Assembly: GCF_003201475.1 (NCBI RefSeq)
Contig: NZ_QJJK01000009.1
Span: 248,001 to 312,000 of the forward strand
From: Chelatococcus asaccharovorans
Lineage (GTDB): Bacteria; Pseudomonadota; Alphaproteobacteria; Rhizobiales; Beijerinckiaceae
Length of the DNA: 64,000 bases
Direction: 5' to 3'
The notes beneath the pieces are model-generated. The model was not told the DNA's origin, did not search any database, and worked only from the letters and a program-made list of their open reading frames with translations. Of this stretch, positions 31,854 to 35,377 are shown piece by piece. Positions within the stretch are counted from its first letter, which is position 1. Each line of letters starts with the position of its first letter. The position numbers and the translations under genes were made by a program.

Positions 31854-33245
31854 CTAATGGGGGCTCAGCATATCCTCCGGCCGGACGATGGCATCGAATT
31901 CCTCTGCCGTCACCGCACCCGATTTCAAGGCCTCTTCGCGCAGCGTGGTGCCATTGTGATGGGCCGCCTTGGCGATGGAGGCCGCCTTGTCGTAGCCGAC
32001 CTTGGGTGCGAGCGCCGTCACCAGCATGAGCGAACGCTGCATGAGCTCGTTGATGCGGCTGGTATTCGCCTCGATGCCGACCACGCAGTTGTCGGCGAAG
32101 CTCACGGCTGCGTCCCCGAGCAGCCGGACCGACTGCAGGAAGGCATAGCCGATCACAGGCTTGAACACGTTGAGTTCGAGATGGCCCTGGGAGCCCGCGA
32201 CGGAGATCGTCGTTTCGTTGCCCAGCACCTGGGCCGCGACCATTGTGATGGCCTCGCACTGGGTGGGGTTCACCTTGCCGGGCATGATCGAGGAACCGGG
32301 CTCGTTCTCCGGCAGCGACAGCTCGCCGAGCCCCGAGCGCGGGCCGGAGCCGAGCAGGCGGATATCATTGGCGATCTTGTTGAGACCGGTGGCAACGCTG
32401 ACAAGCGCGCCATGGGCGAAGACCATCGCGTCATGGGTCGCGAGAGCCTCGAACTTGTTCGGTGCGGAGGTGAAGGGCAGGCCGGTCAGCTCGGCGACCT
32501 TGGCGGCGAAGGCCTCGGCGAATTGCGGATGGGCGTTGAGGCCCGTGCCGACGGCCGTTCCACCCTGCGCCAGGCGGTAGAGATCCTCGAGCGTCTTGTT
32601 GATGCGGGCCATGCCGAGTTCCATCTGCATGGCATAGCCGGAGAATTCCTGACCGAGCGTGACGGGCGTCGCATCCTGCAAATGGGTGCGGCCGATTTTC
32701 ACGACATCCTTGAAGGCTTCGGCCTTGTCGCTCAGCGCCTTGTGGAGGTGGGCGAGCGACGGCAGGAGGTGGGCGGTGATCGAACGGGCCGCAGCGATGT
32801 GCATCGCGGTCGGGAAGGAGTCGTTCGATGACTGGCCGCGGTTCACGTGGTCATTGGGGTGGACCGGCTTCTTCGAGCCGAGTTCACCGCCGAGGATCTC
32901 GCTGGCGCGGTTGCCGATGACCTCGTTGGCATTCATGTTCGACTGGGTGCCGGAGCCCGTCTGCCAGACGACAAGGGGGAAATGGTCGTCGAACTTGCCG
33001 TCCATGACCTCCGTGGCGGCGGTCGCGATCGCGTCGGCAAGCGTCGGATCAAGCGTGCCGAGGTCCTTGTTGACGAGCGCGGCGGCGCGCTTCACCAGCG
33101 CCAGCGCGTGAACGAGAGGAAGGGGCAGGCGCTCGCCACCAATGCGGAAATTCTGCAGAGAGCGCTGCGTCTGCGCGCCCCAATAGCGGTCCGCGTCGAC
33201 ATCGATGGGGCCAAAGGAATCAGTTTCGCTGCGGATCTTGGGCAT
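31854..33245 (-). CDS. fumC: Class II fumarate hydratase
   Basis: Iron-independent TCA-cycle enzyme that hydrates fumarate to L-malate. The 463-residue product has the N-terminal [24 protein letters not shown] (only its first part quoted as family hallmark: [12 protein letters not shown]). It also has [31 protein letters not shown] and the fumarase/aspartase signature [13 protein letters not shown], which holds the catalytic Ser loop (near residue 320). AGGAG is six bases upstream of the ATG used; a TTG one codon earlier is ignored. Length is normal. The gene runs leftward with DUF4169 and the RHH protein behind it. Confidence 0.96.
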
Positions 33246-33310
33246 CAAGCGCTCCTGTCACGGTTTGGGCAGGCCATATAAGCCTTGAGGCCCGGAGTCG
33301 AGAGGCACCC

Positions 33311-33487: not shown

Positions 33488-34096
33488 TCAGGTCTTTTTG
33501 CGAAATGCGTCGAGGCTGACCACCTCGGCCCCCGCTTCCGCGCCGGCTTCCGCCGGTTCAGAGGCAGGTGATGATTTCACGGCGGGCTTTGCCTTCGAGG
33601 GGGTCGCGCCAGCATCATCAACGCCCGCGCGCGGATCAGGGCGCTTGGCCGGAGCAATGCCCGGCGTCCCCGACTTGTCGGTCTCCGCTCGCGGCCCGGA
33701 AACAGGGCCTGCACCCTTGGCGTCGTCGGCCTCCGCTTCGCTGTCCGTCTCGAATTTCAGTCCGAAATCGACGGAGGGGTCGAAGAAGCCGGTGACGGCC
33801 TCGAAGGGCACGAGGAGGCGCTCGGAGACGCCGGAGAATGAAAGCGACACTTCGAAGGCGTAGTCCGTGACCGCGAGATCCCAGAACTGATGCTGGAGCA
33901 CAATGGTCATATCGTCCGGATAGCGCTCGCGCATGCGCGCCGACAGCCTGACGCCGGGAAAGCGTGTGCGGAATGAGATGAAGAAATGATGGTCGCCAGG
34001 CAAGCCATCACGCGCGACTTCGGAAAGAATCTTGCGCACGGCGCCGCGCAAGGCTTCCTGGACGTGGAGATCGTAGCGAATTTGATCCTGGGCCAT
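33488..34096 (-). CDS. sspB: SspB family ClpXP adaptor
   Basis: Adaptor that binds the ssrA tag on stalled-translation products and delivers them to the ClpXP protease. The 202-residue product has the SspB fold in its first ~125 residues (QIRYDLHVQEALRGAVRKIL, HHFFISFRTRFPGVRLSARM and TIVLQHQFWDLAVTDYAFEV). A long Ala/Pro/Glu-rich disordered linker follows, then a short conserved C-terminal peptide (VVSLDAFRKK). In SspB such a tail peptide docks on the ClpX zinc-binding domain. It sits directly downstream of the tmRNA gene on the same strand, so tag donor and tag reader are neighbours. Confidence 0.92.
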   Translation of the reverse strand: MAQDQIRYDLHVQEALRGAVRKILSEVARDGLPGDHHFFISFRTRFPGVRLSARMRERYPDDMTIVLQHQFWDLAVTDYAFEVSLSFSGVSERLLVPFEAVTGFFDPSVDFGLKFETDSEAEADDAKGAGPVSGPRAETDKSGTPGIAPAKRPDPRAGVDDAGATPSKAKPAVKSSPASEPAEAGAEAGAEVVSLDAFRKKT

Positions 34097-34141
34097 CAGC
34101 TCGGAACGCTTGGGACAAACAACGGACAGGCGGAAAGAAGT

Positions 34142-34167
34142 GGAGGCTTCTGTTGCCAGGTGCCTCC
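34142..34167 (-). terminator. Possible terminator hairpin after the tmRNA gene
   Basis: On the minus strand GGAGGC and GCCTCC form a 6-bp stem around a 14-base loop, followed by ACTTCTTTCC. A second short stem (CCCCG/CGGGG around TCGGG) lies just upstream at about 34173-34188. Either could mark the 3' end of the precursor; neither has a clean U-tract. Confidence 0.35.
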
Positions 34168-34169
34168 GA

Positions 34170-34476
34170 ACCCCGCCCGACGGGGCTAACCGCCGGGACT
34201 TTGAATCGGATACCTAAACTGCGTTACGCAGCCTGGGCAACCGGAGCATAGTTGTCGTTGGCAACTATATGTTCGGCCCGATAACGGCGGAACCATGCCG
34301 AGCAAAAGTCCACCCTTTACACCCTCGTCGATCCTATTTCGCCCCCGCCGAAGGGCAGCCGCCGCGCATGCACGCTGTCGCCGCTGCCCTTTGGTGGAGG
34401 CGCCGGGTACCGCCCCCGGGTCCGAAAGGCTTATTGCGATGGCCGTTTATCGCCATAGCCGTCTTGCGACGGCACC
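34170..34476 (-). ncRNA. ssrA: Circularly permuted two-piece tmRNA
   Basis: Rescues stalled ribosomes and adds a degradation tag. On the minus strand the acceptor piece comes first and ends CGCCTCCACCA (CCA at 34392-34394). After a ~45-base intervening segment that folds on itself (AAGGGCAGC / GCTGCCCTT), the coding piece begins GGGGGCGAAATAGGATCGACG at 34346. The two form a 7-bp acceptor stem, GGGGGCG with CGCCTCC, that includes a G3-U70 wobble, the alanine identity element. The tag frame at 34227-34262 reads ANDNYAPVAQAA followed by TAA. The T-stem CCGGG/CCCGG is perfect but its loop GGCGGTA is atypical. The outer ends are estimated: the 5' end from the promoter, the 3' end from hairpins. 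Confidence 0.93.
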
Positions 34477-34481
34477 AATAA

Positions 34482-34511
34482 TATAGGGGGCTTGATGGCC
34501 GCTGGGAAGAT
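34482..34511 (-). promoter_or_regulatory. Likely sigma-70 promoter of the tmRNA gene
   Basis: On the minus strand TTCCCA (four of six matches to TTGACA) is followed 17 bases later by TATATT (five of six matches to TATAAT). Transcription would begin a few bases before the acceptor piece (GTGCCGTCGCAAGACGGC). Position and spacing fit a strong housekeeping RNA promoter, but no experiment supports it. Confidence 0.55.
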
Positions 34512-34903
34512 CGTCCGAGCGCGTGATGCACAATCAGGGATACGCTCCCCGTATTTTTTTGGCGCGGGCGGGCTCCCGTCCGGCTTCATCTCCATGGAAT
34601 GAAGGGCCGGCGCTCGTCCCAACAGAACCGAGTGCCGAGCGCTGCAACGCGACATGTTTCGCGCCTTCTTCCCACGCGCGGCGGATATGGGCTTTCTCAT
34701 CAAGCGAGGGGAAGCCAGCGGCCGCTGACACCCAGGATATGGCGGTGATGTATCAGGATTGGCGCCAGATGCGCCGTAACATTCGAAAATCCCTAGTGTT
34801 TTTCGCATATAGGCTCGCTGCCCCCGCATCGTGAAACCAAATGCATTCCCGAAGTATTGTCATTCCGATCAGCATTTTCTGATCGCCTTTGTGAGGTAAT
34901 GAC
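34512..34903. other. Gene-free stretch between tmRNA and the secreted Val-rich protein
   Basis: About 390 bases without a gene I can defend. A leftward 65-codon frame starting with GTG (34534-34731) is open but lacks a ribosome-binding site and a recognisable family. The last ~100 bases are A+T-richer and should contain the promoter of the following gene. Confidence 0.5.
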
Positions 34904-35377
34904 ATGTTGAAACGTTCATTGCTCGTTGCTGCGGCCGCAATTGCTGGCGGCATCGTATTCTCCGCACCGGCCTCGGCTCAGGTTCTCCTGGCTGGCAACT
35001 ATCTCGCGGGTACGGGCTATCTCGCGGGTACGAGCTATATCGCGGGCGGCCCCGTCTATTTCGGCGGTCCGGTTGCCGGTCCCTTCGTGCCCGGCTACGC
35101 GCTGGCTTCTGGTGAGTTCGGCGAGCGCGTCTATGTGCGTGCGGCTCCGCTCGTCACGCATGTCGTGGCTGCGCCCGTCACGCAATTCGTGGCTGCTCCT
35201 CAAGTGCGTACACGCGTCATCACCACACGTGTCGTCTCGACCCCTGTGGTGACAACGCGGGTTGTGCGCCGTCATTACGTCGTGGCCACGCAGCGCCAGG
35301 TGATCCGTCGTGTGATCCACCGGGCCGCCTACACGACAGTGTCCCCTTGGACGAATGCGGTTTACTACAGCTACTAA
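34904..35377 (+). CDS. Secreted Val/Arg-rich repetitive protein
   Basis: A 157-residue protein with a clear Sec signal peptide ([20 protein letters not shown], cleavage likely after ASA). The mature part opens with Gly/Tyr-rich near-repeats ([19 protein letters not shown]) and then a beta-like region with repeated VV/TT/R patterns ([20 protein letters not shown]), ending in YYSY. The ribosome-binding site GTGAGGT is five to six bases upstream. Such V/T/R and Y/G-rich short exported proteins are common in alphaproteobacteria but have no assigned function. Possibly outer-surface or periplasmic. A plus-strand A+T-rich promoter region precedes it. Confidence 0.75.

Follow-up and report, generated by a model that had tools for sequence, protein, structure and literature searches.

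INTRODUCTION

tmRNA writes a degradation tag, and the adaptor SspB reads this tag for ClpXP. Excerpts of the study of Ulve et al. 2007 (PMC2245857) count tmRNA among three alphaproteobacterial RNAs with conservation of the genes on either side, and they call a functional link between tmRNA and these genes uncertain because smpB lies 1.1 Mb away. sspB is not named in those excerpts. The same excerpts describe tmRNA as ending in a predicted terminator formed by P6 and P7, with pieces of 204 and 82 nt in S. meliloti, and mention the smpB-ssrA linkage of other bacteria. In that linkage, the tmRNA gene likewise lies beside a partner gene of the same pathway; the partner there is SmpB, which loads tmRNA, whereas sspB, at the locus studied here, encodes the adaptor by which the tag is read afterwards. 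An excerpt of PMC2573895 places SMc01450 downstream of ssrA on the same strand in S. meliloti. The adjacency of tmRNA and sspB goes unmentioned in the excerpts of PMC8119881, PMC11915505, PMC4287350, PMC2881028, and PMC3616915, and it is named in no title or abstract opening found by literature searching.

Here, we analyzed a 64-kb stretch of Chelatococcus asaccharovorans DNA (hereafter, the window), in which a tmRNA gene lies directly upstream of sspB on the minus strand, and surveyed this arrangement among relatives, across the class Alphaproteobacteria, and outside the class.

RESULTS

A sequence-only reading of the window had placed a permuted tmRNA on the minus strand and had named the Rfam alpha-tmRNA model and ARAGORN as ways to check it. 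Both confirmed the gene. RF01849 (alpha_tmRNA) matched 34139–34512 (minus) over its full length (model positions 1–355) with 306.8 bits, compared to a gathering score of 50, and ARAGORN called a permuted-type tmRNA at 34133–34487 (minus) with the tag ANDNYAPVAQAA, which was the single tmRNA called in the window. The general permuted model RF04321 gave 153 bits for the same gene, and the window tmRNA was the one RF01849 match in the 7.25-Mb genome. The acceptor piece (34392–34473, minus) ends with CCA at 34392, as had been read from the letters; its 5ʹ end is approximate and follows the length of the S. meliloti piece (82 nt) in the excerpts of PMC2245857. Between CCA and GGGGGCG lies an intervening segment (34347–34391, minus), the removal of which is expected and the identity of which within the genus (67–84%) is lower than that of both tmRNA pieces. 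The coding piece (34139–34346, minus; 3ʹ end approximate) has a length consistent with the 204-nt S. meliloti piece of the same source. Its start, GGGGGCG at 34346, and its tag reading frame with stop (34224–34262, minus) were seen where the sequence-only reading had put them. Its permuted order, with CCA ahead of the coding piece, and its tag frame, which ends in AA, mark the window tmRNA gene as a standard alphaproteobacterial two-piece gene and an ordinary member of RF01849. It shares with the RF01849 tmRNAs of Caulobacter and S. meliloti the full-length model match, permuted order, CCA, tag frame, and 3ʹ hairpin, and its piece lengths fit those given for S. meliloti in the excerpts; the RNA itself shows no difference, and the gene neighborhood alone is at issue.

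The next gene on the same strand is sspB (33488–34096, minus), again as previously read, with a PF04386 match of 165.4 bits (curated cut-off of 27 bits). The predicted ClpXP adaptor has 202 aa and the C-terminal tail VVSLDAFRKKT, and it matched the solved structures 2nys (named AGR_C_3712p), 2qas, and 2qaz, which we take to be SspB structures from Agrobacterium and Caulobacter. The tail is presumably the ClpX-binding part, a role assumed from E. coli SspB. E. coli-type NCBIfam SspB models gave 22 to 23 bits, far under cut-off. With the profile matches, structure matches, and tail of alphaproteobacterial SspB, from which no difference was found, the window SspB is by these comparisons an ordinary member of PF04386 of the alpha type. 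The distance of 70–80 bases that the sequence-only reading had given between the two genes is wrong, as the ATG of sspB lies 42 nt from the RF01849 end (spacer at 34097–34138, minus) or 36 nt from the ARAGORN end. Downstream of sspB, the next gene on the same strand is fumC (31854–33248, minus).

The survey of gene order, which had also been proposed with that reading, revealed a conserved arrangement in all three samples taken within the class. The first comprised 60 genomes, that of the window among them, which belong at least to the same order. A tmRNA was found in 58 and an SspB match in 58, the same 58 holding both. The two genes lay on different contigs in 6 of these, and in 49 of the 52 one-contig relatives sspB was directly downstream on the same strand, within 300 nt in 48 and at 387 nt in one; the exceptions were the genomes G011, G016, and G045. 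The second sample consisted of the best 80 of 577 loci by SspB similarity, mostly Hyphomicrobiales by title (hereafter, named loci). With ARAGORN, 68 of the 80 showed a tmRNA on the strand of sspB and upstream of it, close by in 65. Six of the 12 remaining loci gained a tmRNA with Rfam, five of these being truncated at the contig start, and at one (L279) just the 3ʹ hairpin of tmRNA was visible, with the contig starting close by, which brought the adjacency total to 72/80. At L259, L261, and L313, tmRNA was about 0.8–1.5 kb from sspB, and at L237, L240, L242, L248, and L269 it was not found in the upstream flank examined. The third sample, 190 genomes drawn evenly across the class, had tmRNA in 176 and an SspB match in 168. 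Places were known for the best 150 of each, the weaker 26 and 18 being left out, and both genes were placed in 130 genomes. sspB followed tmRNA on the same strand within 300 nt in 91, at 300–1000 nt in 7, and at 1–5 kb in 11, and it lay elsewhere on the contig in 5; the genes were on opposite strands in 4 and on different contigs in 12. The adjacency was thus present in 91 of the 118 class genomes with both genes placed on one contig and lost in 27 that keep both, which indicates that it is not required. Outside the class, the comparison covered those genomes of a phylum sample in which SspB matched below E 1e-20 and a standard tmRNA scored over the cut-off (n = 29). None of these 29 had the adjacency; the genes were on one contig at a distance of at least 235 kb in 11 and on different contigs in 18. 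The counts from relatives, class, and outside the class rule out a chance or purely local adjacency, and the order and strand of the proposed tmRNA-sspB unit are conserved. Among SspB open reading frames (ORFs) reaching a stop, 76 of 79 from the named loci and 89 of 106 from the class had the C-terminal tail pattern.

Such an order might merely have been fixed in the ancestor of the class and have persisted by slow rearrangement, without function. Every adjacent case lies within one class, so a single origin would be enough, and the loss of the adjacency in the 27 genomes above is also in line with this explanation. However, the genes around the pair do not show the same persistence. Among the 96 class loci with an intact pair (the 91 plus 5 with weaker SspB), FumC followed sspB in 14 of 94 with room, and ThyA was nearby in 20 of 95 with room, the window's genome being counted in both. 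As fumC and thyA are mostly scattered, the tmRNA-sspB pair appears to be specifically kept while its surroundings scatter, although the comparison favors the pair because it was made only where the pair is intact and the counts ignore relatedness. We consider mere shared ancestry very unlikely. An ORF on the plus strand of the window (34904–35377, 157 aa) had no Pfam or NCBIfam match; it was absent from the 1.5-kb flanks of the other 95 class loci and present in the window's own genome alone.

Several loci at which the pair is separated or broken were inspected. In G045, which belongs to the same order, tmRNA and sspB are separated by some 17 kb of prophage-like sequence (L319:1199–18996). Its genes include integrase, terminase, portal, and capsid, and the integrase adjoins the tmRNA 3ʹ end. 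The last 13 nt of tmRNA recur exactly a short way before sspB, as would be expected for an attachment site, although a match of this kind has an E of 0.18. Mobile-element insertion was rejected as a general cause of separation, since integrase was absent in the 32 of 39 non-adjacent class loci that were scanned for one or two ORFs downstream of tmRNA per locus; these ORFs were ordinary genes or had no Pfam match, and the one at L196 was SspB itself. In G011, a genome of the same family, a divergent tmRNA (L317:1020–1347, 114.6 bits, without an ARAGORN call) is about 105 kb from sspB, which is on the other strand. Draft contigs started inside the tmRNA gene or at the tmRNA 3ʹ end at L238, L241, L287, L295, and L310 and in G007 C20, G032 C49, and G046 C12; this could reflect variable insertions at the site or assembly trouble.

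The coding piece ends in a 3ʹ hairpin, GGAGGC-loop-GCCTCC (34142–34167, minus), which we call P7 after the excerpts of PMC2245857. All 150 class loci examined had the loop letters AACAGAA. Its six stem pairs formed in 127, 142, 146, 145, 139, and 114 of 149 class loci, compared to shuffle means of 110, 117, 120, 114, 113, and 84, and the stem pairs covary. As the hairpin occurs with or without an adjacent sspB, it belongs to tmRNA. Straight 3ʹ of it lies a terminator-like, T-rich tract, TTCTTT (34134–34139, minus). At least 4 of the 8 letters after the hairpin were T in 58/71 named loci, compared to 10% of control windows. The same held for 45/96 adjacent class loci, compared to 16% of control windows, and for 35/51 other class loci. 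A weaker T-tract where sspB follows was not accepted, with a Mann-Whitney p of 0.07 on scores and confounding by base composition, and the strength of the T-tract showed no correlation with spacer length in the 96 class loci. The consensus scanner omitted the window hairpin because it allows loops of 3–8 only; its single terminator-like site sits inside sspB (1.5 expected by chance).

The hairpin with its T-tract raises the alternative that tmRNA and sspB are conserved neighbors and separate units, in which transcription of tmRNA ends at the hairpin and that of sspB starts separately, from a promoter in the spacer or within the tmRNA gene. The frequency of the T-tract at the named loci and the terminator predicted from P6 and P7 in the excerpts of Ulve et al. 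2007 (PMC2245857) favor this alternative, as do long spacers (see below) and some of the promoter signals. Across the 96 class loci, promoter-like sites were found in the spacer region of 26, compared to 12.6 expected, and before tmRNA in 59, compared to 24.5, with mononucleotide shuffles only in both cases; in 80, the RF01849 match had a TATA-type box among its first 46 nt. Since the spacer-region sites exceed shuffles, sspB may have a promoter of its own in some lineages. In the window, however, the sole promoter-like site between 33400 and 34950 is that before the acceptor piece (34480–34508, minus; TTCCCA, 17 nt, TATATT; 9 of 12 consensus matches; 0.2 expected from shuffles), which is conserved in four genomes of the genus. 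The sequence-only reading had named a strong terminator together with a separate sspB promoter, alongside absence of the adjacency from all relatives, as evidence that would count against it; the terminator-like hairpin and T-tract are present, but a separate promoter-like site between tmRNA and sspB was not found in the window.

The length of the spacer bears on the same question. Measured between the RF01849 end and the sspB start that was chosen, it was 18–279 nt in the class loci, with a median of 80. It fell below 40 nt in 20 of 96, or in 12 of 96 even with the most downstream possible start; the start codons were chosen by script and are in some cases placed too far downstream, which may make spacers appear longer than they are. 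Among the named loci, 14 of 71 had spacers of 17–38 nt, all 14 with a terminator-like hairpin and T-tract, and in six Microvirga species the distance was 21–23 nt. Spacers of 17–38 nt leave no space for a promoter outside the tmRNA gene, so sspB would be expressed there through read-through or from a promoter inside that gene. Given these predicted boundaries, the expression of sspB in part of the lineages is compatible only with a route through or from within the tmRNA gene. Separate units would, moreover, leave the reason for keeping the pair unexplained, and we regard this alternative as rather doubtful, though deserving some weight.

Conservation of the spacer letters was also compared. 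In the genus of the window (four genomes), the spacer was 93–100% identical, compared to 60–72% at sspB third positions and 41–58% downstream of sspB, and nucleotide conservation of the Microvirga spacer was likewise strong. As a general feature, spacer conservation was rejected, as it exceeded sspB third-position identity in just 21 of 34 same-genus pairs from eight named genera (mean identity of 0.68 for the spacer and 0.66 for third positions), and the results in nine class pairs were mixed. No special fold beyond shuffles was found across the tmRNA-sspB junction (z 0.34).

We further compared the tag sequence with the presence of SspB. Among the tags called by ARAGORN, 113 of 125 from class genomes with SspB started with ANDN, compared to 3 of 8 from genomes without SspB (Fisher p 0.0008, a test that ignores relatedness and incomplete genomes). 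The group without SspB is small (n = 8) and includes two members of one genus, and the tags of odd genomes may be wrong; the exceptions are the 3 SspB-less genomes that retain ANDN and the 12 with SspB that lack it. This pattern fits an ANDN start that is kept for SspB and relaxed once SspB is lost. The SspB-less genomes in which the ANDN start is lost are G108, G232, G156, G176, and G192. Long ARAGORN tags of 23–32 residues were predicted in six genomes with SspB, G072, G143, G169, G199, G204, and G237 (L145, L215, L218, L213, L203, and L199, respectively); several of them contain repeated AN-N motifs and may be real or mispredicted.

DISCUSSION

The tight spacing suggests that tmRNA and sspB are often made from one transcript, and we consider read-through from the tmRNA promoter to be the best explanation of the conserved pair, with a probability of roughly 0.6. 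Transcription would start at the promoter before the acceptor piece, and many transcripts would probably end or be trimmed at the 3ʹ hairpin, giving the two tmRNA pieces. Some polymerases would continue past the hairpin into sspB, and the tag-writing RNA and the adaptor delivering tagged proteins to ClpXP would be produced jointly. Read-through would then be a main source of sspB mRNA, and the pair would be kept so that the writer and the reader of the tag are supplied in matched amounts. In favor of this explanation are the adjacency counts, the scatter of the other neighbors, the short spacers, the lone promoter-like site before tmRNA in the window, and the ANDN tags in genomes with SspB. 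Against read-through, termination at the hairpin and T-tract could be almost complete, and sspB may have a promoter in the spacer, where 26 of 96 class loci have promoter-like sites, or inside the tmRNA gene; the 27 class genomes with separated genes and the occurrence of the hairpin irrespective of sspB also count against it. Of what the sequence-only reading had proposed, the gene identities and the conserved adjacency stand, and co-transcription has indirect support from spacing and sequence signals.

We put forward a broader form of read-through more tentatively, at somewhat below an even chance. Across Alphaproteobacteria, tmRNA would be the first cistron of a two-gene unit in which a leaky terminator is formed by the hairpin and T-tract; expression of sspB would come mainly from read-through, and the strength of the terminator would set the ratio of writer to reader.

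If one promoter serves both genes in much of the class, this would explain how the writer and the reader of the tag are kept in step. The removal or disruption of ssrA may then lower sspB expression by polarity, and published ssrA phenotypes might need a second look.
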